Source: a virus. From it: DNA of 64,000 nucleotides. The stretch lies in IMG/VR virus record IMGVR_UViG_3300032245_001466, positions 1 to 64,000 of that record; one strand, given 5' to 3'. The position numbers and the translations under genes were made by a program. Shown piece by piece: positions 9,245 to 56,822 of the stretch. The notes beneath the pieces were generated by a model, which saw only the letters and a program-made list of their open reading frames with translations, ran no database searches and was not told the DNA's origin. Every line of letters starts with the position of its first letter. Within the stretch, counting starts at the first letter, position 1.

Positions 9245-9249
9245 CAGCG

Positions 9250-9311: not shown

Positions 9312-9331
9312 CCGTACACATCTGTGTGCAC

Positions 9332-16176: not shown

Positions 16177-16665
16177 ATGTGTGAGAGAGGGGCAGTCAAC
16201 TGCCATTTGTGCCGGGAATTGAACGCGTCGGAGACCGCCCTTATTGACATCGTACTCACTATGAGGCGCCTGCAAAAGACCCTTTCTCCCATCATGAAGC
16301 GCTATGAGGAGATCCACCGCGCCCACCCAAGATGTGCTCTATGTACCATTATGATTGGCCCAGAGCACCTAGAGACCAAGCTAGTCCCAGAGCCTATGGT
16401 CCCCAGGGCTAAGGGCCAGAAGCGCTACTCGGTCTGTCCAAACTGCTACGACGTCCTTAAGTCAGTCAAGAGAAGCGTTCCCCAGCAGATTAAGTATTCT
16501 CGTCATGTTGAGGAAGAATTGGTTAGGCTGGACGAAGATGATAAAATTGAGTATGATGGCTTCTGGAAAAAGTTCCGAGACCAGAATATTGTAGACACCG
16601 ACGCCATTCTTGGGCTTAGCGGGGAGGGCCCTGAAGCTAACCCCGAAGAAGGGGACGAGGAATAA
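16177..16665 (+). CDS. Cysteine-rich protein upstream of the portal, unknown function
   Basis: 162 aa. Three CxxC pairs (CHLCRE, CALCTI and CPNCYD at about 9, 51 and 89) suggest zinc binding; a helical and acidic C-terminal half follows. Probably read from a leaderless transcript. It is the first gene of the portal operon and could be a head-assembly or packaging accessory, but the family is unknown to me. Confidence 0.7.
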   Translation: MCERGAVNCHLCRELNASETALIDIVLTMRRLQKTLSPIMKRYEEIHRAHPRCALCTIMIGPEHLETKLVPEPMVPRAKGQKRYSVCPNCYDVLKSVKRSVPQQIKYSRHVEEELVRLDEDDKIEYDGFWKKFRDQNIVDTDAILGLSGEGPEANPEEGDEE

Positions 16666-35773: not shown

Positions 35774-35878
35774 TGTCTAGCCTCCTTCTATGCCTTGCCC
35801 AAGTGGGCTAGTCGCATTATAGAGTGAGATTCTGCGCCCTGTCAAGCGTTCTATCTCAGGTAGCCGGGGCTACCTGAG
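35774..35878 (-). promoter_or_regulatory. Minus-array promoter 1 with upstream palindrome
   Basis: TTGACA (35840-35845), 18 nt, TATAAT (35816-35821). Upstream a perfect 10-bp palindrome CTCAGGTAGC with its complement and a 4-nt loop (35855-35878). Leader hairpin GCCCACTTGGGC and GGAGG follow. A UUCG-capped terminator of the preceding unit lies at about 35892-35912. Confidence 0.85.
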
Positions 35879-35954
35879 CCATAACAATAAACCCCGCCGA
35901 AGCGGGGCTTATCGTTTCACGACGGGGGGCTAGTTCCCCGTAGCGAGCATCTAG

Positions 35955-36176
35955 TTATCGCGCAAGCGCGACGGCCTCTTGTACGCGGCTTGCCGCGCCC
36001 TCGGCGCTACCGAACTCCTCAATGCCGAACACCTCAACGAGATTGTTTACAAAGTCGGTCGCCATCTTCTCAAAGTAGAAGGTCGTATCGCCCTCCGCGT
36101 CCTGCCCCTCATACCAACGGGCAAAGGTTGTGCTTGCTCCGTTTGTGTGAATCTGATACCAAGTGTTTGCGTTCAT
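35955..36176 (-). CDS. Hypothetical protein (minus-array unit 2, second gene)
   Basis: 73 aa, begins MNANTWYQIHTNGASTTFAR; aromatic beta N-terminus then a helix (SAEGAASRVQEAVALAR). It starts 5 nt after the preceding stop, so it is cotranscribed with the zinc protein at 36182. Function unknown. Confidence 0.6.
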   Translation of the reverse strand: MNANTWYQIHTNGASTTFARWYEGQDAEGDTTFYFEKMATDFVNNLVEVFGIEEFGSAEGAASRVQEAVALAR

Positions 36177-36181
36177 TAGTC

Positions 36182-36331
36182 CTACTCCTCACATACGCAG
36201 GTTTCGCACCCGCAGTTGATTTTGTTGTGGCACTTCTCGCAAAGCACCTTGCCGCTCTGGTTGAGTGTTTCGCTCATACCATCGCCGCAGTTCTCGCAGG
36301 GCGAGTAGTCCAAGTCCTCAAAGGTCGCCAT
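36182..36331 (-). CDS. Small zinc-binding protein (minus-array unit 2, first gene)
   Basis: 49 aa with eight cysteines: CENCGDGMS, CEKCHNKINCGCETCVC. Two zinc sites are likely. GGAGGCTAGAA before ATG, the same ribosome-site sequence used by its neighbours. Function unknown. Confidence 0.65.
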   Translation of the reverse strand: MATFEDLDYSPCENCGDGMSETLNQSGKVLCEKCHNKINCGCETCVCEE

Positions 36332-36436
36332 TTCTAGCCTCCTATTCCTAGCCAGCCCAAGTGGGCTACGGGCATTATAGAGTCATCTTCTGCCTGCCGT
36401 CAAGTGGTTCTAGTCCAATCTGCCGAGGCAGATTGG
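36332..36436 (-). promoter_or_regulatory. Minus-array promoter 2 with upstream palindrome
   Basis: TTGACG (36398-36403), 18 nt, TATAAT (36374-36379). Palindrome CCAATCTGC with its complement (36415-36436, loop CTCG on the minus strand). Leader hairpin GCCCACTTGGGC. Just upstream, AACGAGGGG/CCCCTCGTT with TTTTTG terminates the previous unit. Confidence 0.85.
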
Positions 36437-36492
36437 AGGCAAACAAAAACGAGGGGCGCACCCCTCGTTTCTGTTTTCTGAGCTGCGAAACC

Positions 36493-36900
36493 TTACGCGA
36501 TAGGGTAGCCGCCCAGTTCTAGCAGCGTGCGGATTTCTTCCACCTGCTCATCATTGAGGGCGAGCGTCTGCCCGTCCTTATCCTCTGCGGTGAGTACGCA
36601 GTTGCCATAGATGCCGTCAAAGTTTCCGCCGAGGATTTCATTTCGCAGCGAAGTTGCCGCCTGATTGCGGACGACTGGCTCATTGAAAAGCCCTTCCTCA
36701 TCGCACCAGAGCACCACACTCGTTGCGCCGTACTTGCCAGAAACCGCAACCTCGGTAATGTCAAACTCGCCCACGCGGTAAATCTCTTTGAGCGTGCTGC
36801 CGTCATCGTTGAAGTCCACCACCTCAACCCAGTTGAAGAGTGCGCCGTTTGGCGTTGCGTCCTCAAACTTGCCGACTCCGAACTTGAACGCCTTACCCAT
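36493..36900 (-). CDS. Hypothetical protein (minus-array unit 3)
   Basis: 135 aa, beta-rich (FNWVEVVDFNDDGSTLKEIY, YGATSVVLWCDEEGLFNEP) with a C-terminal IYGNCVLTAEDKDGQTLALN and helix. The last part resembles small phage DUF3846-type proteins, but I cannot assign it firmly. GGAGGCTAG before ATG. Confidence 0.6.
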   Translation of the reverse strand: MGKAFKFGVGKFEDATPNGALFNWVEVVDFNDDGSTLKEIYRVGEFDITEVAVSGKYGATSVVLWCDEEGLFNEPVVRNQAATSLRNEILGGNFDGIYGNCVLTAEDKDGQTLALNDEQVEEIRTLLELGGYPIA

Positions 36901-37010
36901 TTTCTAGCCTCCTACTTTTTCCATCGGGAAGCCCCGACCTCTGAATCTTACGCGATAAATCCGCAGCCTGTCAAGCGGGTTCTACCCCTAATGGCCGGAG
37001 CCATTAGGGG
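36901..37010 (-). promoter_or_regulatory. Minus-array promoter 3 with upstream palindrome
   Basis: TTGACA (36969-36974), 18 nt, TAAGAT (36945-36950). An 11-bp palindrome CCCCTAATGGC with its complement and UCCG loop (36985-37010). Leader hairpin TCGGGGCTTCCCGA. No separate terminator lies between it and the preceding gene, so the palindrome itself may end transcription. Confidence 0.85.
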
Positions 37011-37030
37011 CTGAACTATTATCTGGCGAT

Positions 37031-37372
37031 TTAGGCGAAGACGCTTGTGATGTCCTGCATTTCGCGCTCAGCGGCTTCGGCGGAATCAAAGACAACGAAG
37101 TCAATGAATCCATCGTTGCGCCAGTGAACGATTGCATACTGGAACCTATCGTAAGTCCCATCAAGTTCGGTTTCATACGATTCATCTGGGATAGCAACGC
37201 CATCCATCGTATCTCCATAGATGAGTTCAATCTTGATAGCGTGCGGCTCAACGCGGCTCCGAACTTCTGGTCGGAGATACCAAACTGGGCACTTGCTGCA
37301 CACTTCGCCCTGTGAGCAGTGGAACTGGTAGAAGTCGCTCTTCGTGAGTGAGATTGCAAACGCCTTGAACAT
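37031..37372 (-). CDS. Hypothetical protein (minus-array unit 4)
   Basis: 113 aa. MFKAFAISLTKSDFYQFHC and CSKCPVWYLRPEVRSRVEPH, then alternating strands and helix (YAIVHWRNDGFIDFVVFDS, AEAAEREMQDITSVFA). Possibly one zinc pair. GGAGGCTAGG before ATG. Confidence 0.6.
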   Translation of the reverse strand: MFKAFAISLTKSDFYQFHCSQGEVCSKCPVWYLRPEVRSRVEPHAIKIELIYGDTMDGVAIPDESYETELDGTYDRFQYAIVHWRNDGFIDFVVFDSAEAAEREMQDITSVFA

Positions 37373-37476
37373 CCTAGCCTCCTGTTCTCAATCAGCCCAA
37401 GTGGGCTACGCCCATTGTAATGTGAACTTTCCCAGCCTGTCAAGCGTTCTATCCCAAGTGGCCTCGGCCACTTGGG
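37373..37476 (-). promoter_or_regulatory. Minus-array promoter 4 with upstream palindrome
   Basis: TTGACA (37438-37443), 18 nt, TACAAT (37414-37419). Palindrome CCCAAGTGGC with its complement, loop CGAG (37453-37476). Leader hairpin GCCCACTTGGGC. Upstream terminator AAGCGGGCTAGTTG with its complement at about 37492-37527. Confidence 0.85.
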
Positions 37477-37573
37477 GCATAACAATAATAAAGCGGGCTA
37501 GTTGGCTGCGATCAACTAGCCCGCTTGGGGAAGAGGTGGTGGAGGCTGCCGCCACCTCGTAGACATTAGTCCG

Positions 37574-37837
37574 CTATGCGAACTCAAACTGGCGACAATC
37601 TGCGCCGAACAAACAACTGGCTGGCTCGTGTGGTTGTGGCTCTATTGCCCAGTTTAGGCAAGTGCCGCAAGAATCGCCACAAAGGTTGATGTCATCCCAG
37701 TCAAAGACAGGTCCGAGGGTGTTGCCCTCGCGGTCAGTTGTCTGTGGGTCGTCAAGCGCGTCGCCGAAGCGAACCTCAGCGCACGCCACGCAATGGAATG
37801 AACCCTCGTAAGTCCAAGCCAAGATTCTGCTATCCAT
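37574..37837 (-). CDS. Cysteine-containing protein (minus-array unit 5)
   Basis: 87 aa. Cysteines in CVACAEVRFGD, LCGDSCGTCLNW and CLFGADCRQF suggest two metal sites. AGGAGG before ATG 37837; an upstream in-frame start lacks a ribosome site. Function unknown. Confidence 0.6.
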   Translation of the reverse strand: MDSRILAWTYEGSFHCVACAEVRFGDALDDPQTTDREGNTLGPVFDWDDINLCGDSCGTCLNWAIEPQPHEPASCLFGADCRQFEFA

Positions 37838-37940
37838 AAGTCCTCCTACTCGCAACTATCGGTAGTTCCCGACCACACGATTATACGCGATAAGTTCTGA
37901 GCCTGTCAAGTTCCACCGCAAGGAGCCGAGGCTCCTTGCG
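37838..37940 (-). promoter_or_regulatory. Minus-array promoter 5 with upstream palindrome
   Basis: TTGACA (37904-37909), 18 nt, TATAAT (37880-37885). Palindrome CGCAAGGAGC with its complement, loop CTCG (37917-37940). Leader hairpin TCGGGAACTACCGA. Confidence 0.85.
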
Positions 37941-37954
37941 CCTACCCAATAATG

Positions 37955-38035
37955 CTATCTACTGCTGATGAGGGCGAGTGTGTACAGCATTAGGAGCAGG
38001 AGCAGCCCGTAGAAGATGGCGTACTCCACAATCAT
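37955..38035 (-). CDS. 26-residue membrane peptide (minus-array unit 6, second gene)
   Basis: MIVEYAIFYGLLLLLMLYTL plus six residues: one transmembrane helix. The ATG overlaps the upstream stop (ATGA), so translation is coupled. A 26-codon membrane ORF with the same coupling is found at 47137. Confidence 0.5.
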   Translation of the reverse strand: MIVEYAIFYGLLLLLMLYTLALISSR

Positions 38036-38289
38036 ACAACCACGCTTTGGAGCGCGTCGTAGCAGTCATCGCATAGCGACTGCTTATGCTCGTAGGCGTT
38101 CTCGTAGCCGTTCCAGCCGTAGGCAAACGAACGCGTCTTGCCCTCAAACGGGCAACGCTTGTCCAGACCAAGAGCCTCCTCGCCCTCGCACTCCTGAACC
38201 ATTGGGTGATCGTGCGTTTCGCACTCGCATTGGTCGTAGTAGCAATCGCCGTTGCCACACATCGTCATTGACGCTTGTAGGTATGCCAT
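38032..38289 (-). CDS. Cysteine-rich protein (minus-array unit 6, first gene)
   Basis: 85 aa. MCGNGDCYYDQCECETHDH at the N-terminus and SLCDDCYDALQSV at the C-terminus form probable zinc sites. AAGGAGGCAACA before ATG 38289. Function unknown. Confidence 0.65.
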   Translation of the reverse strand: MAYLQASMTMCGNGDCYYDQCECETHDHPMVQECEGEEALGLDKRCPFEGKTRSFAYGWNGYENAYEHKQSLCDDCYDALQSVVV

Positions 38290-38395
38290 TGTTGCCTCCT
38301 TCACTAGCCTCCCCAAGTGGGGTACTCGTATTCTATACACACTCCTAGCCAGCCGTCAAGCGGGGTTCTAGTCATCTTTGCCGGAGCAAAGATGA
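38290..38395 (-). promoter_or_regulatory. Minus-array promoter 6 with upstream palindrome
   Basis: TTGACG (38354-38359), 18 nt, TAGAAT (38330-38335). Palindrome TCATCTTTGC with its complement, UCCG loop (38372-38395). Confidence 0.8.
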
Positions 38396-38408
38396 GCAGA
38401 ACAAATAG

Positions 38409-38628
38409 AAAGACCCCCCAGAGCCGTCGCCCTGAGAGGTCTTTCCTCGGATTCGTTGTCTGGGGCTAATCACTTCCCCAGACTCCTTTTCCTTCCGCTC
38501 CGCCGATACATTGGCTCCTAGCGGTCATCGTCCTTTGCGTCTCTATCCCCGCATTTCTTGGCTGCGGCATCTGCTCGCTCGTCCAGAGTCTCACCCAGTC
38601 GGTTGCTATTCCTAGGATCGCTTCCGAC
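38409..38628 (-). ncRNA. Candidate structured non-coding RNA 1
   Basis: A canonical array promoter reads into about 220 nt with no ribosome site and no convincing ORF, ending in an intrinsic terminator (AAAGACC/GGTCTTT stem, 38409-38444, then TCTATTTGTT). Within it lie GTCGG/CCGAC at the 5' end (38598-38628), CCGCA/TGCGG (38549-38567), CCGCT/AGCGG with inner GCC/GGC (38495-38524), and an 8-bp GTCTGGGG/CCCCAGAC hairpin (38458-38483). The last can be replaced by AGACTC/GAGTCT (38480-38485 with 38586-38591), a possible switch. A 54-codon ORF starting 4 nt after the -10 is possible but improbable. Confidence 0.55.
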
Positions 38629-38749
38629 ATAGGGAGTATCTCACCTCGTCTGGGGTCTTGTCAAGCACTTTCCCAAAGATTCTTTATGAATCTTTTTTAT
38701 CCACCAGCCGCCCCCTTGACAGTTCTATCCCGAAGTGCAGCTGCACTTC
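38629..38749 (-). promoter_or_regulatory. Minus-array promoter 7 (drives ncRNA 1) with distant palindrome
   Basis: TTGACA (38659-38664), 18 nt, GATACT (38635-38640). The palindrome CCCGAAGTGC with its complement (38726-38749) sits about 60 nt further upstream than in other units. Between them lies a plus-oriented terminator-like hairpin (AAGATTC/GAATCTT then TTTTT, about 38673-38700). Confidence 0.7.
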
Positions 38750-38792
38750 GGGCTGCCACAATAATAAACTCAAAGAACAAGGAGCCAAATAA

Positions 38793-38927
38793 CTAACTCT
38801 CTTGCGGGTGCTCGCAGTTTTCTGACTGCTCCAACTCGTAGCACGCGTTATCCCGAACGGGATTGTCTACACACTCGCAGACAATCTCATTGCGTTCGCA
38901 GTCATCGCACCAAACCATCGTACTCAT
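38793..38927 (-). CDS. Small Cys-rich acidic protein (minus-array unit 8, third gene)
   Basis: 44 aa. CDDCERNEIVCECVDN, then CYELEQSENCEH: seven cysteines in total, probably a zinc site. TAATG overlap with the preceding gene. Function unknown. Confidence 0.55.
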   Translation of the reverse strand: MSTMVWCDDCERNEIVCECVDNPVRDNACYELEQSENCEHPQES

Positions 38928-39145
38928 TAGAGCCTCCCAGTTCCGCCGCAGCCGCAGATGCCGCCCTCGCAGGTTGCGCCTTCCTCAACGAGCAGCGCGC
39001 AGCCGTACTTCTCGGCTCGGTGTTCCTCGCACGATTCGCAGTAAAGAGCAGATTTGCCAGACTCATTGTTGTCGGAGATGTACGCTGCCTGACCGTCGCA
39101 GAAGTCGCAGAAGCGCGACTCCAAGATGAACTCGCCCTCGCTCAT
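38927..39145 (-). CDS. Zinc-ribbon protein (minus-array unit 8, second gene)
   Basis: 72 aa. CDFCDGQAAYISDN and CESCEEHRAEKYG form one ribbon; the end CEGGICGCGGTG is a second cysteine cluster. The start overlaps the upstream stop (ATGA). Function unknown. Confidence 0.65.
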   Translation of the reverse strand: MSEGEFILESRFCDFCDGQAAYISDNNESGKSALYCESCEEHRAEKYGCALLVEEGATCEGGICGCGGTGRL

Positions 39146-39351
39146 AGTGCCACCTCAAATCCGTCAGCCTGAATACCATCTAGAATCTGCTGAACATAGC
39201 GGCGCTCAATCGCAAGACCGCGACCAAGATACATCGCGTCCTCGCCGATGTTCTCGTCCAGCCAGCGGCGAGCATCGCTCGTCGTCGGAGTGAGTAGGCA
39301 GACGGAGCCGCCGTCCGTGAGCGTGAAGTCCGCGCTGTGCTTCTTTGCCAT
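39142..39351 (-). CDS. Hypothetical protein (minus-array unit 8, first gene)
   Basis: 69 aa: DFTLTDGGSVCLLTPTTSDA then ARRWLDENIGEDAMYLGRGL and YVQQILDGIQADGFEV. A small alpha/beta fold; many phage proteins of this size and pattern are known without function. AGGAGG precedes ATG. Confidence 0.65.
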   Translation of the reverse strand: MAKKHSADFTLTDGGSVCLLTPTTSDARRWLDENIGEDAMYLGRGLAIERRYVQQILDGIQADGFEVAL

Positions 39352-39452
39352 TGTGTCCTCCTATCGCAACGCGCCCAAGTGAGCGTGAGGAAAGTGTAAA
39401 TGATCATTGACCAGCCGTCAAGTTCTAACTCAAACAGCCGCGGCTGTTTGAG
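39352..39452 (-). promoter_or_regulatory. Minus-array promoter 8 with upstream palindrome
   Basis: TTGACG (39416-39421), 17 nt, TACACT (39393-39398). Palindrome CTCAAACAGC with its complement, loop CGCG (39429-39452). Confidence 0.8.
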
Positions 39453-39465
39453 CCGAAACAATAAA

Positions 39466-39668
39466 GGGGAGCCGCGCCAGACACCACATCTGGCACGACT
39501 CCCCGCGTATCGCCGCTATGACGCTTATCCCCTTGCGGAGGCAACCTTCGGCTCTCGCCTAGTTGCTGCTGACTCTACCTTCTCTGGTTAGGAGCCCAAG
39601 AGCCAGACCTTATCGTCGCGGGCAGTTCGTCAATCTGCCAACTAGCCGTCCTCTACACGGCGCGGATT
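39466..39668 (-). ncRNA. Candidate structured RNA 2 (3' region of unit 9)
   Basis: After the stop of the unit-9 gene about 165 nt of non-coding sequence lead to a terminator (GGGGAG plus GCCAGA stems, 39466-39504, then TTTATTG). Paired segments include GCCGT/ACGGC (39645-39661), a closing stem CTAGTTG/CAACTAG (39559-39565 with 39639-39645) around TCTGG/CCAGA (39583-39607) and GGCAG/CTGCC (39621-39639), a GCAA-capped CUCC/GGGG hairpin and a GAGA-capped GGC/GCC. Two GNRA tetraloops and a multibranch closing stem suggest a folded RNA. No own promoter is visible. Confidence 0.5.
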
Positions 39669-39671
39669 TAT

Positions 39672-39956
39672 TTACGCTTTCACCTCGTACTGCTCGCCGC
39701 CGATTCGCAGCGCGGTGATTGCGTCAAGGGCGATTGAGCGATAGCCCTCTGCGGTAATGTCATAGACGAAGATGAGGTCTTTGGCAGCAGCGTCATACGC
39801 AGCCTCGCCGCCTTTGAGATGCTTCTTTACGCCAAGACGCGCCGTCATCTTGCGAAGTTCGCCCGTGGTTCGCTTGATGAAGTCCACGCCGAAGATTGCG
39901 CCATTGCTGTTGCGAATCATCTCTGCCGCTTCGCTTCGCTTGATTGCCTTTGCCAT
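39672..39956 (-). CDS. Conserved phage/plasmid small protein, SH3-like (minus-array unit 9)
   Basis: 94 aa. Pattern MIRNSNGAIFGVDFIKRTTG, RLGVKKHLKGGEAAYD, DLIFVYDITAEGYRSIALD and GGEQYEV. This small beta-rich family (KKHLKGG and GYRSI motifs) is widespread in phages and plasmids, without known function. GGAGGAAGAA selects ATG 39956. Confidence 0.7.
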   Translation of the reverse strand: MAKAIKRSEAAEMIRNSNGAIFGVDFIKRTTGELRKMTARLGVKKHLKGGEAAYDAAAKDLIFVYDITAEGYRSIALDAITALRIGGEQYEVKA

Positions 39957-40062
39957 TTCTTCCTCCTTGTTCACAGCACCCCAATCGGGGCAAGCCCATT
40001 ATAGGGTCATCTTTTGCCAGCCGTCAAGTGGGTTCTAGCCCAAGAGGCCGGAGCCTCTTGGG
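39957..40062 (-). promoter_or_regulatory. Minus-array promoter 9 with upstream palindrome
   Basis: TTGACG (40022-40027), 18 nt, TATAAT (39998-40003). Palindrome CCCAAGAGGC with its complement, UCCG loop (40039-40062). Confidence 0.85.
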
Positions 40063-40078
40063 GCTGAACTATAATCGC

Positions 40079-40255
40079 CTACTTCCAGTCTTCTGGAACT
40101 AACTGCCAATCCTTTTCGCAATCACTAGAATAAAGGTCGCAATGCCGACACCAGACGACAAAGCAGCCCTCCTCGTGTCCGTCTTTCTCGCAATCAGACC
40201 AGAGCCAATGCGCCTCGCGAAGATTGTCTGGGCAGTCGCAGCGAAGAACGCTCAT
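40079..40255 (-). CDS. Small Cys/His-rich protein (minus-array unit 10, second gene)
   Basis: 58 aa. CDCPDN, CEKDGHEEGC and WCRHCDLYSSDCEKDW give two possible zinc sites. ATGA overlap with the upstream gene. Function unknown. Confidence 0.6.
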   Translation of the reverse strand: MSVLRCDCPDNLREAHWLWSDCEKDGHEEGCFVVWCRHCDLYSSDCEKDWQLVPEDWK

Positions 40256-40701
40256 AGGACTTCGCAACCTTTCAGGGTGCGGCAAAGACCCAGAAACTCT
40301 CGCCACTCCTCAATAATCGCAACCCAAGCCGTAGCCTCTTCATCTGGGTCAGCCTTCGTCTTATCGTCCGTGTACGGGCTGGCAAGAAGAATACCAGTAA
40401 TAATCTTCTTGATTTCTTCTTCGCTCAACTTGGAGATGGCATTGTGTAGTTCTTCGCACTCATAGTCCTTGATGATGTTGCCGCTGTTATCGTACAGATT
40501 CTCATTGACCTCGGTGAATCCAATCTCATCGTGGAAAGCGCGCAGGTAGCCCATACCCCAAATGTTCAGTCGGAAATAGACCGCGCTTGGAGCCTTCTCA
40601 GCGTAAGAGCCGTCTGGCTCAATCCACATTGAGCGGAACTTCTTGGCGTGCGCCGCAGCCAGTTCACGATTCTCTCGCAATGAGTAGATGTCGTATCCCA
40701 T
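40252..40701 (-). CDS. Hypothetical protein (minus-array unit 10, first gene)
   Basis: 149 aa. MGYDIYSLRENRELAAAHAK, YFRLNIWGMGYLRAFHDEIG and SKLSEEEIKKIITGILLASP. The start MGYDIY... and an aromatic N-terminal half recur in small phage proteins, but the family is not certain. GGAGGACAAA precedes ATG 40701; an upstream in-frame extension lies in the promoter region. Confidence 0.65.
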   Translation of the reverse strand: MGYDIYSLRENRELAAAHAKKFRSMWIEPDGSYAEKAPSAVYFRLNIWGMGYLRAFHDEIGFTEVNENLYDNSGNIIKDYECEELHNAISKLSEEEIKKIITGILLASPYTDDKTKADPDEEATAWVAIIEEWREFLGLCRTLKGCEVL

Positions 40702-40803
40702 TTTGTCCTCCTTATTCCACACCCCAATCAGGGCAAGGTCATTGTAAGGTACCGCTCTCCGCTCGTCAATAGGTTCTAGCCAAGATGGCCGGAGCCATCT
40801 TGG
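40702..40803 (-). promoter_or_regulatory. Minus-array promoter 10 with upstream palindrome
   Basis: TTGACG (40764-40769), 17 nt, TACAAT (40741-40746). Palindrome CCAAGATGGC with its complement, UCCG loop (40780-40803). Upstream terminator AACCGCC-TTCG-GGCGGTT with TTTTTTG at about 40812-40830. Confidence 0.85.
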
Positions 40804-40854
40804 GTACAACAAAAAACCGCCCGAAGGCGGTTAGTTGTTTGGAAATAATCCTGA

Positions 40855-41331
40855 CTAAACGATAACTTCCTGCGGCTCCATAAGCCCAGCCCAGATGTTT
40901 GGCACATTAGAGCGGATGCTCGTGTATCCGTCAGAGGAAATAACGAGATGGTCAAGAAACTCAATGTCCAACAGGCGCGCCCCTGCCACCAAGTCCTCAG
41001 TTAGTTTCTTGTCCTCGTCGGACGGAGTGTGGTCGCCGCTTGGGTGATTGTGAACAACCACAATGCCCTGACCGCCAGTCAGGATACAAGAGCGAAACAC
41101 TTCGTTGATGCGAACGCTTGTGCCTGTTGCCGTGCCAAGATAGACCTGCTCAATCCCGATGAGATTATTCCTTGCCCCAAGCACCATCACAAACAGCGAC
41201 TCCTGATTAGAGTCCTTTGCGAAATCGCGGAACATCTTTACTGCCTCGGCTGGCTGCTCAACCCTCTCATCGGACTGATCAGCAACCTTCTTTCTCTTTA
41301 CCACCATTTCGTATGCTTTCCAGTTCTTCAC
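40855..41331 (-). CDS. RadC-like JAB-domain protein (minus-array unit 11, second gene)
   Basis: 158 aa. VVVHNHPSGDHTPSDED is the JAB/JAMM metal motif (HxH...D) of RadC-like proteins, followed by LLDIEFLDHLVISSDGYTSI. Residues 1-35 are a basic extension. RadC-like genes are common in mobile elements and defence islands; their biochemical role is unsettled. The start overlaps the upstream stop by ATGA. Confidence 0.85.
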   Translation of the reverse strand: MKNWKAYEMVVKRKKVADQSDERVEQPAEAVKMFRDFAKDSNQESLFVMVLGARNNLIGIEQVYLGTATGTSVRINEVFRSCILTGGQGIVVVHNHPSGDHTPSDEDKKLTEDLVAGARLLDIEFLDHLVISSDGYTSIRSNVPNIWAGLMEPQEVIV

Positions 41332-41876
41332 GCTACCACCACCTTTGCTGCTTCCTCTTTGGTTGTCTTGCCGCTGCGAATCTCATCTCGCAACTCAATC
41401 CCTTCCTTCATCCAGATTGCGTCAAGTTCGGCGTTGCGCTTCTCAGCGTGCTTTGCCTCGCGCAAACCTTCCTCAGTCATACGCTCAACAACGCGCTTGC
41501 GCCAAGCCGTCGGCGACTCATAAGAGGCGTTTGTTGAGAGTCCGATGTGCCGAACGATGTCGGCACGCGTCAGAGGGCGAGCCTCAAAGCAATCTGCGTT
41601 CTTATCGCCGTCTGGCTCGTTTCCGTTCCATACGGTCATCTTTGAGAGCCAACCGATTTCGTATGCGAGCGCGAGTCGCTGCTCCCACTCATCCACATTG
41701 GCTTCGGTGATTTCGTTTAGTCCAATCGTCATCGTCGCCCAGATGAAGGAGTTCGTGATTGGGCTGAGGTACTCCTCGCCGCGCACGCGTCCATCCATCA
41801 CGCTGCTCTTTGTTGCGGTGAGCCAACAGACATCATCCGCGTCCTTGATGTTTCCCACGAACCAACTTAGTGGCAT
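41328..41876 (-). CDS. Hypothetical protein (minus-array unit 11, first gene)
   Basis: 182 aa. MPLSWFVGNIKDADDVCWLT, then FIWATMTIGLNEITEANVDE and a highly charged helical end (MTEEGLREAKHAEKRNAELD). Not recognised. It is encoded with the RadC-like gene. Confidence 0.6.
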   Translation of the reverse strand: MPLSWFVGNIKDADDVCWLTATKSSVMDGRVRGEEYLSPITNSFIWATMTIGLNEITEANVDEWEQRLALAYEIGWLSKMTVWNGNEPDGDKNADCFEARPLTRADIVRHIGLSTNASYESPTAWRKRVVERMTEEGLREAKHAEKRNAELDAIWMKEGIELRDEIRSGKTTKEEAAKVVVA

Positions 41877-41984
41877 ACTGCCTCCTTATGTCCTCTTATC
41901 GGGAAGCCCCGACCTGCTTATTCTAAGACCACGCTTGACCCGCTGTCAAATGGGTTCTAGTCCAATGAGCCGGAGCTCATTGGA
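41877..41984 (-). promoter_or_regulatory. Minus-array promoter 11 with upstream palindrome
   Basis: TTGACA (41944-41949), 18 nt, TAGAAT (41920-41925). Palindrome TCCAATGAGC with its complement, UCCG loop (41961-41984). Leader hairpin TCGGGGCTTCCCGA. No other terminator precedes it. Confidence 0.85.
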
Positions 41985-42004
41985 GGCGAACTATTATCTG
42001 CTTA

Positions 42005-42475
42005 TTACTTGATTTGGTTTGTCGTATAACCGCACGCCATACAAACTGGGACGGAGCAGCCTTCGGGATTGTCGCCCGTATCTACGCCCTCATCTGGGTC
42101 GCACAATCCACACGGCGCATAATCGACATCACGGCAGAGGCACTCGCTTTTCGCATCTCGCGGCAAGTCGTTGTAGTGCCTGTGCCAGTTTGCGTCGCCG
42201 TCGCGATTCAGCGCAAACTCGCAATCAGGGCGGAAGCACCAACCATCAGCAACGGCTTCCTTGTCCGACATAAATGGCGGGTGAAACTCACACTCGCACG
42301 GAGCGCAGTCCAAGCAGTAGACGAGATAGCCATCTGGCACGCTTCCATCATACTGATCAAAGTCAAGCGTATCGAATCGCGTGTACGGCATACCATTCCA
42401 AGTGCCGATGACCTTCTCGTCGGCGTAGAAGACCATCGTGGAGCAGCGAACGCATTTGTCCATCTGCCCACTCAT
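42005..42475 (-). CDS. Cysteine-rich protein (minus-array unit 12, second gene)
   Basis: 156 aa with about 14 cysteines in pairs (CVRCSTMVFY, CLDCAPCECEFH, CRDVDYAPCGLCD, VCMACGYTT). Probably several zinc ribbons. ATGA overlap with the upstream gene. Function unknown. Confidence 0.65.
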   Translation of the reverse strand: MSGQMDKCVRCSTMVFYADEKVIGTWNGMPYTRFDTLDFDQYDGSVPDGYLVYCLDCAPCECEFHPPFMSDKEAVADGWCFRPDCEFALNRDGDANWHRHYNDLPRDAKSECLCRDVDYAPCGLCDPDEGVDTGDNPEGCSVPVCMACGYTTNQIK

Positions 42476-42780
42476 TCTGCTTCCTCCCACTCCGCGCCCT
42501 GCTCAATCAGGGAAACGAATCCTTCATTTGGATCATCGTGGTTGGTGTGAACTGCCTGTACGAATCGCAACGAACAAGAGTTCTCGTACCACTCCATCAC
42601 CGCGCTCAGCATCTCATCTGGCGTGGTGTCTTCCGCGGAGATCAGCGGATCATAGCCGTACCCGCGCATCTCCGACATCTGCTCATCGTCCATCAAGACA
42701 TAGATCTTGTGGCAGGTATCAAACGCGATGCCCTTCGCATTTTCTAGATACTCCTCAACCTTGTCGAAACTCGCTGCCAT
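42472..42780 (-). CDS. Hypothetical protein (minus-array unit 12, first gene)
   Basis: 102 aa: MAASFDKVEEYLENAKGIAF, KIYVLMDDEQMSEMRGYGYD, and an acidic tail. The pattern YLENAKGIAFDTCHKIYVLMD followed by G-Y-D-P resembles small phage proteins of unknown function. Confidence 0.65.
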   Translation of the reverse strand: MAASFDKVEEYLENAKGIAFDTCHKIYVLMDDEQMSEMRGYGYDPLISAEDTTPDEMLSAVMEWYENSCSLRFVQAVHTNHDDPNEGFVSLIEQGAEWEEAE

Positions 42781-42885
42781 TTCGTCCTCCTAGTTTCTAC
42801 ACGGCAACTGCCGTAGGTGGATTGTAAGGCACAACCTAGCGGCTCGTCAAATGTTCTACTCCAAGTGGCCGGAGCCACTTGGAGT
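42781..42885 (-). promoter_or_regulatory. Minus-array promoter 12 with upstream palindrome
   Basis: TTGACG (42845-42850), 18 nt, TACAAT (42821-42826). A 12-bp palindrome ACTCCAAGTGGC with its complement, UCCG loop (42858-42885). The leader GGCAGTTGCCGTGTAG equals that of plus-array unit 8. Upstream terminator AAATCCCGCCC with its complement and TTTTTG. Confidence 0.85.
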
Positions 42886-42940
42886 AAAACAAAAATCCCG
42901 CCCCGAAGGGCGGGATTTCTGGTTGATCTTCTGGTGAAGA

Positions 42941-43903
42941 TTACGCGAGGGCGAGAATCGCCTCGCGCTTTGTCTTCGCTGCGAAGCCCGTATCCAACAT
43001 CACGCTTGACGCTCGCGCATCAAGAGCCGTTGAGCGAACGCCGCCACGATACGAAACGCCGTGATCGAGGTACTCCGCGATGGCGTTGTACACGCCCCAC
43101 TTCGTATCGCGAAGCCCGTCAAGATTCTCCGCGTTATTGAGAATCGCGAAAGTTGCCTTAGCGCGCTCCGACATTACTTCCTTATCGCGCTTCTCCGATT
43201 CAGAGAGCGGGAAGATCTTTGAGATGATGCGGAACGCCTCAGATCGCTCAATCTTCTGGGCAACCATCTGCGAGCCGATGCGCGAGAACTCATCAACAGC
43301 GGCAGAGGCAAGCCCAAGAGCGCGCTTCGCCTCCGCGACTTTCTCCTCAATCTTCGCCGTGTGGCGAAGTGTGAACGACATCTTCGCGCTTCCAAGAGCC
43401 GCGTTGAGCGTATTCTGGCATACCACGCGCACAGGAGTGATCATCGCTTTGAGCGGGAACAGCCCGTTGTGCCCATTGGCGATGACGAGGTAAGTCGTCG
43501 TGCCGCCGTTGTCGCCCTTGATCTCGATCTTCTCAGGAATCTCCAACGCCGCGAAGATCACCTGACCGCCTTTGAGTGAACCAGCCGTTTCGTAGCGCGC
43601 ACCCTCATCAAGCAGCGCGTCCGCGAACGACAGCATCTCATCGTTCTGGATTGGCGTGTAGCGGTCGCCGACAACGCCAAGAACCGCGCCGTCAGTTGAT
43701 CGAACATTTGCGCGCTTGCCCTCGATGGCGAGCGTCTTGTTGTCGAGCGTTGTGAAGATCGGCTGCTGCTTGACCTGCCAATCAAGACCCGCGGCAACGA
43801 TCATTTCCGCGCTCGTAGTAAGACCTGCGTTTGCTACGCCAAGTCCGTGCCACGGCATACCGCGCTCCGCGTTGTATGCCATCGTTTCTACCTCGTGTGC
43901 CAT
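42941..43903 (-). CDS. DUF932 / TIGR03299-type phage/plasmid protein (minus-array unit 13)
   Basis: 320 aa. MAYNAERGMPWHGLGVANAG, VGDRYTPIQNDEMLSFADAL, TYLVIANGHNGLFPLKAM and PVRVVCQNTLNAALG are characteristic of the DUF932 family (TIGR03299), frequent in phages and on conjugative plasmids near the leading region, where it is expressed early. Biochemical function unknown. GGAGGACACA before ATG 43903. Confidence 0.85.
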   Translation of the reverse strand: MAHEVETMAYNAERGMPWHGLGVANAGLTTSAEMIVAAGLDWQVKQQPIFTTLDNKTLAIEGKRANVRSTDGAVLGVVGDRYTPIQNDEMLSFADALLDEGARYETAGSLKGGQVIFAALEIPEKIEIKGDNGGTTTYLVIANGHNGLFPLKAMITPVRVVCQNTLNAALGSAKMSFTLRHTAKIEEKVAEAKRALGLASAAVDEFSRIGSQMVAQKIERSEAFRIISKIFPLSESEKRDKEVMSERAKATFAILNNAENLDGLRDTKWGVYNAIAEYLDHGVSYRGGVRSTALDARASSVMLDTGFAAKTKREAILALA

Positions 43904-44003
43904 TGTGTCCTCCTTCTTTACATACGGCAACTGCCGTAAGAAGATTCTCCCACAAGCACAAGATCGCGTCAAGTTCTAGCCCAAAGGGCCGGAGCCCTTT
44001 GGG
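43904..44003 (-). promoter_or_regulatory. Minus-array promoter 13 with upstream palindrome
   Basis: TTGACG (43967-43972), 17 nt, GAGAAT (43944-43949). Palindrome CCCAAAGGGC with its complement, UCCG loop (43980-44003). Leader GGCAGTTGCCGTATG. Upstream terminator at about 44014-44042 with TTATTATTAT. Confidence 0.8.
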
Positions 44004-44088
44004 TGGAACATAATAATAAGCCCCCCGAATAATCGAGGGGCTTATTACTTTGTGGGGCGCAGGGAGGACGCCTTGCGCCCCGAAGTCA

Positions 44089-44901
44089 TCAGCCTCCGAC
44101 GATGCCGCCGAAATGCTCCTCGCAGAACGACTCAAACTCCGTCTGCGGAACGGCATCATAATCTCGCTCGCCGTATTGCGGCTTGCCATCTTCGCCCTTG
44201 TACCACGCCTCATCTGGCAGCGAGTCGCCATCGCCAAACTCACGCCGCGAGATTTCGTTTCCCGCGTGATAGACAACTTCGCCAGCGTAGCCCATACCGC
44301 CTTCGCAATAACGATGAGTAATGGTCAGCGTTGGGAATAACCCAGAGAGCGCGTGAATCACAGGCTCGGCAGGGCTCCACGCGGTATCAAAGTTGTATGA
44401 AGTTATACCCGCGACAAATGAGTCGTCGCGGTCGTGCCAAGCCTCGGAGCAGTTCCACTTTGTTCCCCAATGCTCAACATTCCAGTTGTACCACCAGTCT
44501 GGGTGTGAGGAAATCTTTGGGGTGTTGTGCTTTGGGCAGACCTCTGAGCCGCCGAACATCTGAGCAACAGAGTCAGTAATCGTGCCGTTATCAAGGTTCG
44601 TCTTCTTTACCTCAACGCCGTCCACAGCCCAATAGCCTTCTTGAGGCTCAAAGCCGTAGTCCTTCTCGTACTCGTGTCCTTCGGCTCCCTTGACCACCGC
44701 CTTGGTGATAACGAACTCTGGGTGGCAGCCACAAAGGAAATCGTTCTGATTCTCGTTGGCTGAATAGTACGGAACATCAGGAGTCGGAACAATCTTCGCG
44801 AAATCGAAGCCGTCCTCTTCGCCCTTGACCAACTCAATGAGTCGGACAATCTCCTGCTCGTTTCCGCTGATGTCTACTTGGTTTACGCACCAGTTTGGCA
44901 T
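44089..44901 (-). CDS. Api92-like DUF1281 protein, ferredoxin-like fold (minus-array unit 14)
   Basis: 270 aa. MPNWCVNQVDISGNEQEIVR at the start and WYNWNVEHWGTKWN in the middle are the signature of Api92/YubB-like DUF1281 proteins found in phages and on plasmids next to anti-restriction and DUF932 genes. The C-terminal half has AWSPAEPVIHALSGLFPTLT. Function unknown; plasmid co-occurrence suggests an early host-interaction role. Confidence 0.85.
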   Translation of the reverse strand: MPNWCVNQVDISGNEQEIVRLIELVKGEEDGFDFAKIVPTPDVPYYSANENQNDFLCGCHPEFVITKAVVKGAEGHEYEKDYGFEPQEGYWAVDGVEVKKTNLDNGTITDSVAQMFGGSEVCPKHNTPKISSHPDWWYNWNVEHWGTKWNCSEAWHDRDDSFVAGITSYNFDTAWSPAEPVIHALSGLFPTLTITHRYCEGGMGYAGEVVYHAGNEISRREFGDGDSLPDEAWYKGEDGKPQYGERDYDAVPQTEFESFCEEHFGGIVGG

Positions 44902-45004
44902 TGTGTCCTCCTTGTGTCCTCGCGGGAAGCCCCGCACCATTGGATTGTAAGCCACCGCTTCCGCTGCTGTCAAGTTCTACCTCAACAAGCCGGAGCTTGT
45001 TGAG
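44902..45004 (-). promoter_or_regulatory. Minus-array promoter 14 with upstream palindrome
   Basis: TTGACA (44968-44973), 18 nt, TACAAT (44944-44949). Palindrome CTCAACAAGC with its complement, UCCG loop (44981-45004). The leader GGTGCGGGGCTTCCCG equals that of plus-array unit 12. Confidence 0.85.
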
Positions 45005-45022
45005 CGCGAACTAATTATTTTT

Positions 45023-45355
45023 TTATTTATCGAAAGAGAGTGCACTAACTCCGTCAGGCGTCATGACCACATGTCCACCTTCGACGAAGATGCGTCCGCC
45101 ATCGTTAGCCTCATCATCAGATGAAATAATCAGGGAATAACGCTTGCCGTTCTGCTTGACGAATAACACGGGCATGTATGGCTCTTCCTCGCCATCGCCA
45201 ATAACTGTCCCACCAATAATCGTCGCCCCAATAAATGGCTCGACCATCTCTGTCCGAAGGTAGTGGCGCTCAATGGCATCGCGGCTCAAGCCAGTCCGCT
45301 CTTTCACTAACTGATTCCTATTGCTCAATAACTGCGCAATCGTTTCGACAGCCAT
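45023..45355 (-). CDS. Hypothetical protein (minus-array unit 15, array start)
   Basis: 110 aa: an N-terminal helix (LLSNRNQLVKERTGLSRDAI), then strands (FIGATIIGGTVIGDGEEEPY, YSLIISSDDEANDGGRIFVE). GGAGGAAGTT before ATG 45355. First gene of the minus array; function unknown. Confidence 0.6.
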   Translation of the reverse strand: MAVETIAQLLSNRNQLVKERTGLSRDAIERHYLRTEMVEPFIGATIIGGTVIGDGEEEPYMPVLFVKQNGKRYSLIISSDDEANDGGRIFVEGGHVVMTPDGVSALSFDK

Positions 45356-45452
45356 AACTTCCTCCTTACACCTATAGGCTAACTGCCTAACCGCATTATA
45401 AGTCAGCCAATAACCGTCTGTCAAATAATAAGGTTCGGGCCTCGCTTGCGAG
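45356..45452 (-). promoter_or_regulatory. Minus-array promoter 15 with short upstream hairpin
   Basis: TTGACA (45419-45424), 18 nt, TATAAT (45395-45400): both boxes match the full sigma-70 consensus. Only a short CTCGC/GCGAG hairpin (45441-45452) replaces the long palindrome. Leader hairpin TAGGC/GCCTA. Confidence 0.8.
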
Positions 45453-47772: not shown

Positions 47773-47848
47773 TGGTGGGGGCGCCTGGATTTGAACCAGG
47801 GGCCGTCCGGATATAAGCCGGATGCTCTAACCGCTGAGCTACGCCCCC
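47773..47848 (-). tRNA. tRNA-Ile (anticodon TAT)
   Basis: Complete cloverleaf on the minus strand: acceptor GGGGGCG/CGCCCCC, D-arm GCTC/GAGC, anticodon stem TCCGG/CCGGA with loop CTTATAT (anticodon TAT, reading AUA), T-arm with GGTTCAAATCC, discriminator A and encoded CCA. It would help decode AUA, rare in high-GC hosts. Confidence 0.9.
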
Positions 47849-50153: not shown

Positions 50154-50380
50154 AGCTCGTTGCGACAATCACCCTGCTTCCTGGGCGGGTGCAGGTATGG
50201 CGGGTTGACGCCAATGGAGAGGTGCATCTTGCCATTACCCCAGAAGAGGCGCTTGACGCAGTGCTCTCCGCTGCGACCGGTCGGTCAGTGAGTGTAAACT
50301 GGATTGGCGTCCCTCAGGACTTTGACCCGCCCGGATGGGATGGTCGCCTTGATCGTCTTCCACCAAACGCAATGGCGTGA
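50150..50380 (+). CDS. Small protein coupled to thioredoxin
   Basis: 76 aa, starting at the thioredoxin stop (ATGA-type overlap, TTGAAG start context). Strands KLVATITLLPGRVQVWRVDA and EALDAVLSAAT. The end overlaps the minus-strand ParB-like gene by 67 bp (convergent). Function unknown. Confidence 0.5.
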   Translation: MKLVATITLLPGRVQVWRVDANGEVHLAITPEEALDAVLSAATGRSVSVNWIGVPQDFDPPGWDGRLDRLPPNAMA

Positions 50381-50832
50381 AATTTGTGCCCACACATCGG
50401 GCACTCAGTCTTTTTCTCGTCAAGGTCCATTGGGTCTGGCTCCATCGCCTGCCGAACCAGTCGGTCCATATCTTCAAGGTCATAGCCAGTAGAGTCAAGG
50501 AGCCCATCTACGGCGGACTCGTACACAACGCGCGCCAGGATTTCGTCGTCATAGCCACCAAGATCTGACGCTCGATTGTCGGCAAGAAGAATTGCCCTTG
50601 CCCGCTGATCGTCGACATCTGCCCATTGCACGGGGATCTCTTCAAGATTAAGAATGAGCGCGGCCTTAACTCGATGGTTTCCAACCAAGATTCTTCGCGT
50701 AGACTTTTGGCAAACGACTACGCCGTGCCAGCCATTCTTTTTGATTGACTCGACAATTGCCCCAACGTCACCCGAGCGCGGATTGTCTGGGTGCGGCTTT
50801 AGGGTTGCTGGTCGCTCTTGCGTGATTTCCAA
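50314..50832 (-). CDS. ParB-like nuclease-domain protein A
   Basis: 172 aa from TTG. LKPHPDNPRSGDVGAIVESI, VGNHRVKAALIL and LLADNRASDLGGYDDEILAR match the ParB/Srx-like nuclease fold. The end has CPMCGHKFH (zinc pair). Such phage proteins are linked to DNA modification and partition-like activities. It is the last gene of the glycan cluster. Confidence 0.75.
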   Translation of the reverse strand: MEITQERPATLKPHPDNPRSGDVGAIVESIKKNGWHGVVVCQKSTRRILVGNHRVKAALILNLEEIPVQWADVDDQRARAILLADNRASDLGGYDDEILARVVYESAVDGLLDSTGYDLEDMDRLVRQAMEPDPMDLDEKKTECPMCGHKFHAIAFGGRRSRRPSHPGGSKS

Positions 50833-54733: not shown

Positions 54734-54809
54734 TGGCGCCGCCGACAGGAATCGAACCTGCGACTAACTGCTTAGAAGGCAGCTGCTCTATCCACTGAGC
54801 TACGGCGGC
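54734..54809 (-). tRNA. tRNA-Arg (anticodon TCT)
   Basis: Complete cloverleaf on the minus strand: acceptor GCCGCCG/CGGCGGC, D-arm GCTC/GAGC, anticodon loop CTTCTAA (anticodon TCT, reading AGA), T-arm GGTTCGATTCC, discriminator G and encoded CCA. AGA is frequent in phage genes here (about the tail region) and rare in high-GC hosts. Confidence 0.92.
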
Positions 54810-55165: not shown

Positions 55166-55235
55166 TTTCTCCTTCTTTCCCCAAGTCATCTTCGCTTGGA
55201 CAACCACTATACGCGACCCACAATGAGGCTGTCAA
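55166..55235 (-). promoter_or_regulatory. Sigma-70 promoter of the HTH gene
   Basis: TTGACA (55230-55235), 18 nt, TATAGT (55206-55211), then about 40 nt of leader and AAGGAG. No upstream palindrome. Confidence 0.8.
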
Positions 55236-55310
55236 GTTGGCGATCAAAGTAAGACATCACTCAAAATGCGTCAACGGGGGAAAAAGGGTAGGGATAAAGG
55301 GGGAAATAGG

Positions 55311-55529
55311 ATTACGAAGGTATCTTAAGAACATGAGGTATGAAATACCGAATGTTCTTGAGATACCGTAGTAATCGGGTACAGTATCCCGAGAGTTCCT
55401 GAGGTACGTAGTACCGAAGGAACTAGAGGGATAGCTGTACCCGGAAGTTAACGGTATTTCTAAGAGTACATAATACTTAAGTACCGTTATACCTAAGAAC
55501 CATATTGTTCCTGTTACCTGAGAACAATA
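55311..55529. repeat. Tandem block of four segmented hairpins (origin- or RNA-like)
   Basis: Hairpin 1 (55311-55375): helices ATTAC/GTAAT, GGTATCT/AGATACC, AGAACAT/ATGTTCT and GGTAT/ATACC, separated by small symmetric internal loops. Hairpin 2 (55376-55443) abuts it: CGGGTACAG/CTGTACCCG, TCCC/GGGA, AGTTCCT/AGGAACT, GGTAC/GTACC. In both, the last two helices are separated by GA opposite GA. Hairpins 3 (TAACGGTA/TACCGTTA, 55449-55489) and 4 (TATTGTTC/GAACAATA, 55503-55529) are simpler. Gene-free. It could be a replication origin, a packaging or regulatory site, or a structured RNA. Confidence 0.75.
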
Positions 55530-55544
55530 GAGAGGATTGTACAG

Positions 55545-55703
55545 GTGGAAATTGACTTGTCAAGTCCAGACACACAAACTGCCGAGCAGTCGCCTGAAGA
55601 TATTATATTAACTTGCGCAAATTGTGGAAAAAAGATGGAAGAGCGAAAATGCAAGTTGATTTGCGAGTGCGGCTATTACGCGTCGTGTTCTGACTACTAT
55701 TAA
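55545..55703 (+). CDS. Small zinc-ribbon protein
   Basis: 52 aa from GTG, with GAGAGG upstream. ILTCANCGKKMEERKC and LICECGYYASCSDYY give a ribbon; the first 24 residues are acidic and flexible. It starts 16 nt after the last hairpin of the tandem block. Function unknown. Confidence 0.6.
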   Translation: MEIDLSSPDTQTAEQSPEDIILTCANCGKKMEERKCKLICECGYYASCSDYY

Positions 55704-55776: not shown

Positions 55777-56145
55777 ATGAATCAAGGGCAAGGCGTTGTT
55801 GACCAAATTATTGTTCAACAAGTTTTAATGCATCGAGCGCCAGCGGGTGTTTCAAGTATTTCTGGAGCTTGTCGCGCACTTGCGTCAGATTACGGAATTA
55901 CTCCGGAAACTATGCGGACGTATGCCCACAAGGGTGTTCCTGGGAAGTCAAAAATTGCAAGAAGGATCTTGATGGAATTTTCCGAAGTTGAAGCAAGTCA
56001 ACATTCCGCCGTCGTTAAAGTTTCTGCGAGCAAAGAAAACCTTATAAAATCAATTGAAGAAATTACGCAAGCGTTTGAATCCTCAGCAGAAACGCTTCGC
56101 GCATTGAAAAAAACCGTTGCAGAAGAAATTGGAGTTTCAAAGTGA
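55777..56145 (+). CDS. DNA-binding HTH protein
   Basis: 122 aa. GVSSISGACRALASDYGITP and ETMRTYAHKGVPGKSK read as a helix-turn-helix; a coiled-coil tail follows (LIKSIEEITQAFESSAETLR). AGTGGAGGAG before ATG. Overlaps the ParB-like gene (GTGA), so the pair may act together. Confidence 0.6.
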   Translation: MNQGQGVVDQIIVQQVLMHRAPAGVSSISGACRALASDYGITPETMRTYAHKGVPGKSKIARRILMEFSEVEASQHSAVVKVSASKENLIKSIEEITQAFESSAETLRALKKTVAEEIGVSK

Positions 56146-56822
56146 TTATTGACGATCTTATCCCACTTGCCACGCCCATTGAAGGGCTAAAGCCATGGGG
56201 GAAAAACCCACGGCGGGGAAACGTTGACGCCATTGCGCGCTCGCTTGCAAAGTTTGGACAGCGACGACCAATTGTTGTTCGCAAAAGCACAAACGAAGTT
56301 ATTGCGGGAAACCACACGCTTCAGGCAGCGCAGCAACTTGGCTGGAAGCAAATTGCCGTAGTTTGGGTGCAGGACGACGACCAAACTGCGACCGCCTTTG
56401 CTCTTGCTGACAACCGCACGCAAGACCTTGGTTTCTACGACGAAGATTTGCTTGAAGAGTTGATTAACAGCATTAACGAGCAGGACTTGTTCCTAGCAAC
56501 TGGGTATTCCGAAGAAGAGCCAGAGTTAGATTTTTCTAGCGGCACACAGACCGCAACCGTTCCGCAAATTCCGCAAATTTCTGACCCAAACGCAATGCGA
56601 ACGGAATTTGTCGAGGGCCTTGACGGGAGCATTTCTCAGCGACCAGCGCCACCGCTTGACCCCAATATGGCAATGCTGGTAAAGATTGGTGGCATTGAGC
56701 TACGCCTTGCAAGGGAAGAGGCAGAACCGCTGGTTATGGCGTATCGCAGGTACGTTGAAAAGAAGGGAACATCAACGGGATTCTTCCTTTGGCTGGTTGA
56801 GGGGAAAGATATCCCCGAGTAA
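56142..56822 (+). CDS. ParB-like nuclease-domain protein B
   Basis: 226 aa. LKPWGKNPRRGNVDAIARSL, FGQRRPIVVRKSTNEVIAGN (GNHT in place of GNHR), then ALADNRTQDLGFYDEDLLEE. The same family as the protein at 50314 but with an extra C-terminal part (PLDPNMAMLVKIGGIELRLA). Function in phages unclear; DNA modification or segregation are the usual guesses. Confidence 0.75.
   Translation: MIIDDLIPLATPIEGLKPWGKNPRRGNVDAIARSLAKFGQRRPIVVRKSTNEVIAGNHTLQAAQQLGWKQIAVVWVQDDDQTATAFALADNRTQDLGFYDEDLLEELINSINEQDLFLATGYSEEEPELDFSSGTQTATVPQIPQISDPNAMRTEFVEGLDGSISQRPAPPLDPNMAMLVKIGGIELRLAREEAEPLVMAYRRYVEKKGTSTGFFLWLVEGKDIPE

Follow-up and report, generated by a model that had tools for sequence, protein, structure and literature searches.

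What is the structured stretch between two divergent regulator genes of this uncultured phage, and is it RNA or DNA that folds there? The window analyzed consists of positions 1 to 64,000 of IMG/VR record IMGVR_UViG_3300032245_001466 (82,937 bases), and its plus strand carries at 55310–55442 two abutting hairpins of ~66 nt apiece. These twin hairpins are probably a control element, undescribed so far, whose target we infer. They share a common tip plan consisting of GGTAY, a 3-nt loop, and RTACC, with GA opposite GA immediately beneath (55335–55336 with 55350–55351 in hairpin 1, and 55401–55402 with 55416–55417 in hairpin 2). An earlier note, made from the sequence alone, had correctly placed the site between divergent regulator genes, and the abutting hairpins, 5-bp GGTAY tip helices, and opposed GA that it described are seen in the fold. 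The common geometry it proposed extends to the tips only, because the 7-bp helix below the tip belongs to hairpin 2, while the equivalent helix in hairpin 1 is 16 bp with one G-U pair. Similarly, the further small loop it described is present in both hairpins and is purine-rich (3x3), yet it is placed at different heights.

Table 1. Features at and around the twin hairpins (window positions)
Feature	Positions	Strand	Description
HTH130, two-HTH protein, 116 aa	54815–55165	-	N-terminal winged HTH, BldC/Xis-like; C-terminal three-helix HTH
P2, promoter for HTH gene	55206–55235	-	TTGACA-18-TATAGT; counterparts with weaker -10 in other lineages
Purine tract, four G-runs	55276–55303	+	G-quadruplex-like by expectation; kept in 4/5 lineages, missing in lineage B
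Hairpin 1	55310–55376	+	6-bp outer helix, 3x3 purine-rich loop, 16-bp helix, then tip
Hairpin 1 tip		+	Tandem GA/GA, 5-bp GGTAT helix, GAA loop; surrounding 33 nt almost invariant
Hairpin 2	55377–55442	+	14-bp outer helix with one bulged G, 3x3 purine loop, 7-bp helix
Hairpin 2 tip		+	Tandem GA/GA, 5-bp GGTAC helix, 3-nt loop; exactly 66 nt from hairpin 1 tip in 13/13 sequences
Former hairpins 3 and 4	55443–55529		No conserved fold; short palindromic words in common with hairpin arms
P1, promoter	55536–55563	-	TTGACA-16-TACAAT; in 9/9 sequences scanned (5 lineages); start predicted at ~55529
Small Cys-rich protein, 52 aa	55545–55703	+	Start GTG 55545 or TTG 55557; first gene of rightward operon
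122-aa protein and ParB_N-domain protein	55777–56822	+	Next rightward genes

The stretch folds unusually well. As RNA, the 280 nt at 55281–55560 had a folding energy of -116.9 kcal/mol versus -63.2 kcal/mol for shuffled sequences (z -11.55; 0/200 shuffles as good), and the 136-nt hairpin stretch folded as DNA gave a z of -12.35. In 140-nt windows across both strands of the whole record, 55301–55440 of the plus strand ranked first of 2366 (z -12.55). The second rank was taken by 42841–42980 on the minus strand (z -12.08), where strong neighboring stem-loops are terminator-like; likewise, terminator-like pairs of very strong stem-loops at 43951–44100 (minus) and 9241–9380 (plus) rank with the record's best-folding windows. 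The minus strand of the hairpins also folds strongly (z -8.68). The tip motif, with up to two mismatches allowed, occurs twice in the window versus 0.06 times expected. Four tandem hairpins had been proposed at the locus, of which 1 and 2 are conserved. Hairpins 3 and 4 fold in one sequence, and across eight sequences the stretch after hairpin 2 yielded no common structure (5 consensus pairs at -0.37 kcal/mol); for lack of a conserved fold they were dropped from the element. The purine tract preceding hairpin 1 retains its G-runs in lineage E despite changed sequence. We had considered it as a promoter motif recurring across the genome and dropped this idea, since the genome has no second good copy. 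"G-quadruplex-like" here, as well as "sheared GA" and "leaderless" below, denotes a structural expectation.

Relatives were collected by protein searches with neighboring genes, which yielded 12 IMG/VR contigs bearing the left HTH gene. All 12 hold both hairpins, located by the tip motif, with the tips exactly 66 nt apart. Together with the window they form an alignment (A2) of 13 sequences, 8 of them distinct, which we sorted into five lineages: A (the window, L040, L042, and L082), B (L035, L064, and L088), C (L061, L066, L069, and L124), D (L099), and E (L107). Around tip 1, a segment of 33 nt is 94–100% identical between the lineages compared, and identity drops to 47–88% in the outer arms. 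Of the 424 cells defined by 53 named pairs in the 8 distinct sequences, 99.3% are paired, and 17/53 pairs have changed on both sides, a signal that is partly due to the relatedness of the sequences. No shuffle matched either the pairing or the double-change value (0/500), and control registers slid by 1–3 columns were 28–48% paired with 1–3 double-changed pairs. The outer helices, beyond the repeated words discussed below, contribute 8 of the 17 double changes. With this number of double-changed pairs and nearly none broken, there is little doubt that pairing is kept. Hairpins 1 and 2 are real and under selection, and it is their fold that is kept and not their sequence. Conservation of pairing in relatives had been set beforehand as a test of the earlier note, and it holds for hairpins 1 and 2; the row expected in related phages recurs in the 12 contigs as this pair, without hairpins 3 and 4.

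Template switching during replication can make the arms of a hairpin match without selection, and palindromes kept matched in this way would leave the fold itself unselected. Switching alone could produce the arm matching. It would also erase GA/GA and the other mismatches, yet these persist in all lineages, nearly all mismatches are of one type, and the spacing and tips are fixed. We therefore give hardly any credence to neutral palindromes.

The element appears restricted to these five lineages, as the collections searched yielded no more relatives. A tip-motif search for distant relatives returned 97 stretches; among the 80 listed were 11 two-site contigs (66 nt), all already known, and L124, outside those 80, had also been found by the protein searches. 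Single-site matches occurred at about the chance number by our estimate. A relaxed two-tip pattern gave 22 stretches in viral contigs, with no non-family match having comparable paired arms, and at least 119 matches in genome contigs, with no comparable arms outside the family among the 80 matches listed. By a gap-free count of arm pairing, the best non-family stretch scored 45 versus 51–55 for three family members and 40 for another one that carries an insertion. HTH130 had no match in the genome_contigs collection or the phage collection, nor did the hairpin DNA in the phage collection. In Rfam 15, the sole matches of the window above the gathering cut-off were two tRNAs, and the best weak matches within 55200–55600 were miRNA models at 17–19 bits, far under the cut-off. 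The element thus matches no Rfam family, nor any system that we could name, and literature searches, mostly at the level of titles, turned up no published description of it.

The mismatches indicate which strand is selected. We compared the 8 distinct sequences at 63 opposed positions. Where the plus strand departs from Watson-Crick pairing, it has GA (13 positions), GU (4), or TT (1), with AC and CT at 0 of 63. The same positions on the minus strand are CU, AC, and AA, and never GU. The occurrence of favorable mismatches on the plus strand and of only unfavorable ones on the minus strand argues that selection sees the plus strand, as RNA or single-stranded DNA. A sign test on 10 events, grouped by ourselves, gave a p of about 0.002. 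Purines make up 60% of the plus strand at this site, which makes purine-purine mismatches likelier anyway, and the GA part of the strand signal is therefore weaker than it appears. The plus strand also folds 5–16 kcal/mol better than the minus strand in 8/8 sequences (at 25°C). That GA/GA, expected to form sheared pairs, is confined to the plus strand, as the earlier note remarked, is true by definition; it is the strand asymmetry of the mismatches that makes it matter.

The conserved promoters have the opposite direction. Only leftward ones, P1 and P2, are conserved in every lineage, and P1 has 11/12 consensus bases in 9/9 sequences, with differing spacer sequences. The predicted P1 transcript would run antisense through both hairpins. 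Immediately past hairpin 1, the minus strand is rich in T in the 8/8 sequences inspected, suggesting that this transcript may end there. Ahead of the hairpins, no conserved plus-strand promoter of the sigma-70-like class was found at 9/12 consensus bases or better, which points either to an upstream rightward promoter of another class or to a plus strand that acts as DNA. The phage does use sigma-70-like promoters, as evident from ~12 leftward near-consensus promoters (TTGAC[AG]-17/18-TATAAT-like) at 35845–45424 on the minus strand. Most of these have a short stem-loop directly downstream, which AGGAGG and ATG follow in turn, and together these parts make up a repeated promoter/5'-hairpin module ahead of small genes.

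P1 might instead serve a minus-strand small RNA, ~225 nt in length and ending behind hairpin 1, that would act in trans, for example by means of its hairpins or C-rich end, and HTH130 would be a separate gene behind P2. This is compatible with the conservation of P1, the T-rich stretch, and the considerable folding of the minus strand. The opposed non-canonical pairs are nevertheless all unfavorable on the minus strand, which disfavors minus-strand RNA as the selected fold, and lineage B lacks the C-rich end; we consider a trans-acting RNA quite unlikely.

The hairpins have a constant companion in the HTH130 gene. In a set of 16 whole records, the hairpins (detected with covariance model R1) and the HTH gene occur together in 7 and are both missing from the other 9, which were picked for carrying the small Cys-rich gene. 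The glycosyltransferase and epimerase-like genes are retained in the same divergent place in 7/8 hairpin-less records compared (L013 left out). Among the best 80 of 169 terminase-anchored loci, the identical 10 hold the hairpins and the HTH gene and 70 hold neither; many of these 70 are short, with ~20 including the small gene, one of which is cut at the contig end (L293). By these counts, the hairpin pair and the HTH130 gene are inherited together. P1, the hairpins, P2, and the HTH gene form a leftward-oriented cassette that comes and goes. An AlphaFold model of HTH130 (7 sequences) consists of a winged HTH and, apart from it, an HTH of three helices (pLDDT 79, pTM 0.46), and BldC and Pukovnik Xis are among its best Foldseek matches, all of which are weak (best E 0.052).

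This distribution bears on the proposal that the site is a replication origin or a partition or packaging site. GC skew turns from negative to positive at ~55 kb, and tall hairpins, iteron-like words, and nearby ParB_N genes would fit such a site. However, gene direction also flips at ~55 kb, coinciding with the change in skew, and the recognizable replication genes are 30 kb off, at 20–24 kb. The hairpins and HTH130 are missing from 9/9 small-gene records outside the hairpin-bearing group, and the sister group (terL ~68–69% identical) has neither. A ParA ATPase (PF13614) was not found in the 82.9-kb record, which is possibly incomplete, in a search for ParA alone that was positive in 14/14 controls. 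The ParB-like neighbor had been taken to allow a partition-like site; it is a common phage ParB_N-domain protein, which gives no evidence of a centromere, and the co-inherited partner is the left HTH gene instead. We regard all three kinds of site as very unlikely.

The reading that we favor, with a probability of roughly one in three, is that of a structured plus-strand leader controlled by an antisense RNA and a repressor in the style of plasmids pMV158 and pIP501. The twin hairpins would be the part that folds in an untranslated leader preceding the rightward operon, which encodes the small Cys-rich protein, the 122-aa protein, and the ParB_N protein and would be the governed operon, the small Cys-rich gene being the candidate controlled gene. 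P1, located at the operon start codon, would give rise to a counter-transcript of ~225 nt complementary to the leader, and this transcript may stop where the minus strand turns T-rich past hairpin 1. HTH130, whose gene is divergent, would supply the DNA-binding arm of this control as a repressor. The three components would jointly determine how strongly the operon is expressed, in the way such components govern a plasmid rep gene. The observed basis for this reading is the conserved fold, the preference for the plus strand, the conserved P1, and co-inheritance with the HTH gene. The reading presumes transcription of both strands, an interaction between them, a role for HTH130 at this site, and control directed at the rightward operon. 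It explains how selection for a plus-strand fold can accompany a conserved promoter reading the minus strand. A structured leader RNA was among the options of the earlier note and has become one of two leading readings, in keeping with the covarying pairs and the favorable non-canonical pairs of the plus strand.

In passages of the pMV158 and pIP501 literature, CopG and RNAII control the rep gene of pMV158, with antisense pairing that need not begin at kissing loops (PMC4485353), and in pIP501, which has CopR and RNAIII, a leader of 329 bp separates copR from repR (PMC4485353, PMC4981023). As far as those passages go, the likeness consists of a gene for a small DNA-binding repressor, an antisense promoter in the leader, a hairpin, and a U-rich antisense end, all of which are predicted from sequence here. 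The predicted P1 lies within the putative leader in 9/9 sequences. Unlike the plasmid systems, the locus belongs to a phage record, the regulator is divergent, the loops have 3 nt, no sense promoter is recognizable upstream of the leader (sigma-70-like class at 9/12 or better), and the downstream genes include no rep gene or other replication initiator. The leader reading requires a rightward promoter so far unseen, although it does not require kissing loops. Three-nucleotide loops are poor for initiating RNA-RNA contact, and the P1/hairpins/P2/HTH cassette points leftward. Furthermore, the small gene of hairpin-less relatives appears by eye to have a promoter-like sequence of its own only a few bases upstream, so that the rightward transcript may begin past the hairpins.

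The other leading reading, which we consider almost as probable, is that of a DNA element. The inverted repeats would fold back on the plus strand, extrude as cruciforms, or form an operator array, and HTH130 would bind them and thereby switch P1 and P2. Co-inheritance with a DNA-binding protein fits this reading, as does the resemblance of the HTH130 model to BldC and Pukovnik Xis. The palindromic word YYTNAGRWAC is ~10 times commoner than in shuffled sequences, in the hairpin arms as well as in the stretch after hairpin 2, where the fold is not conserved; such words would be fitting sites for a DNA-binding protein that acts as a dimer or multimer. The loops are of three bases (GAA in hairpin 1 in 13/13 sequences). 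However, a dimer site is expected to be symmetric, but GA is opposite GA at both tips in 13/13 sequences, and operator words do not explain the covariation of the outer arms. The Foldseek matches are weak, as given above, and HTH130 binding is putative. The one-strand signature is unexplained by a DNA element unless the plus strand becomes single-stranded, and no such event is known here.

Hairpins acting as DNA have precedents in phages. Promoters of the N4 virion RNA polymerase, as described in passages of PMC4496689, are hairpins with a short tip stem and a 3-base loop in which sheared G-A favors one strand, and the hairpins here share these features. Unlike those of N4, they are much taller (~31 bp) and do not occupy positions -17 to -5 relative to a promoter start, and an N4/T7-like RNA polymerase (PF00940) had no match in the record or in any control. 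In the target hairpins of diversity-generating retroelements (DGRs), also DNA, it is the stem and not the sequence that counts, according to a portion of PMC3240598. A reverse transcriptase (PF00078), as retrons and DGRs would have, was not found in the possibly incomplete record (positive in 4/14 controls), nor was a tyrosine recombinase (PF00589), as would accompany attC or integrase sites (positive in 14/14 controls). BldC binds head-to-tail repeats, as stated in part of PMC5859096, and the N-terminal fold match of HTH130 and the repeated words near promoters resemble the direct-repeat operators of BldC and Xis. In contrast to these, the words here are palindromic, the protein has a second HTH domain, and the presumed target has a conserved fold. 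TIGR arrays and box C/D-like guide RNAs share with the element the tandem phage units and tips with CUGA-like sequence. We rejected a TIGR array because its geometry, as given in sections of PMC12045711, does not fit: the units here are 66 nt with self-complementary arms and have no 9-nt spacers.

A further reading is a strand-specific folding switch: HTH130 would recognize the folded plus strand, either as an RNA mimic of its operator or as extruded DNA, through the paired tandem-GA tips exactly 66 nt apart. Protein and foldable target would then be one cassette, in which folding itself flips the divergent promoters. We consider such an arrangement, of a kind undescribed before, unlikely. The remaining probability belongs to explanations that we have not thought of.

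A structured regulatory element combined with an antisense promoter and a DNA-binding regulator is of an already known kind; the element itself appears to be new. It covaries, has no relative in Rfam, occurs in one phage group only, and is inherited only with the gene of a small DNA-binding protein, and its one-strand mismatch signature runs opposite to the direction of the conserved promoters. It offers a compact, testable case of selected RNA structure versus selected DNA foldback and, if the leader reading is true, perhaps an example of antisense control of the plasmid type operating in a phage.

Several neighboring features merit mention. Extended -10-like sequences (TGTATACT and similar) occur ~7 nt before a start codon at 16140–16180 and, in L325 and L343, before the small Cys-rich gene; judged by eye, their position suggests leaderless mRNAs, as in actinobacteria. 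Two ParB_N-domain proteins (50314–50832, minus, and 56142–56822, plus) flank the divergent region and are ~43% identical by cross-hits, and both genes recur within the hairpin-bearing group. A tRNA Arg(TCT) gene (54734–54809, minus) is located directly behind the HTH gene, and a tRNA Ile(TAT) gene is at 47773–47848 (minus).
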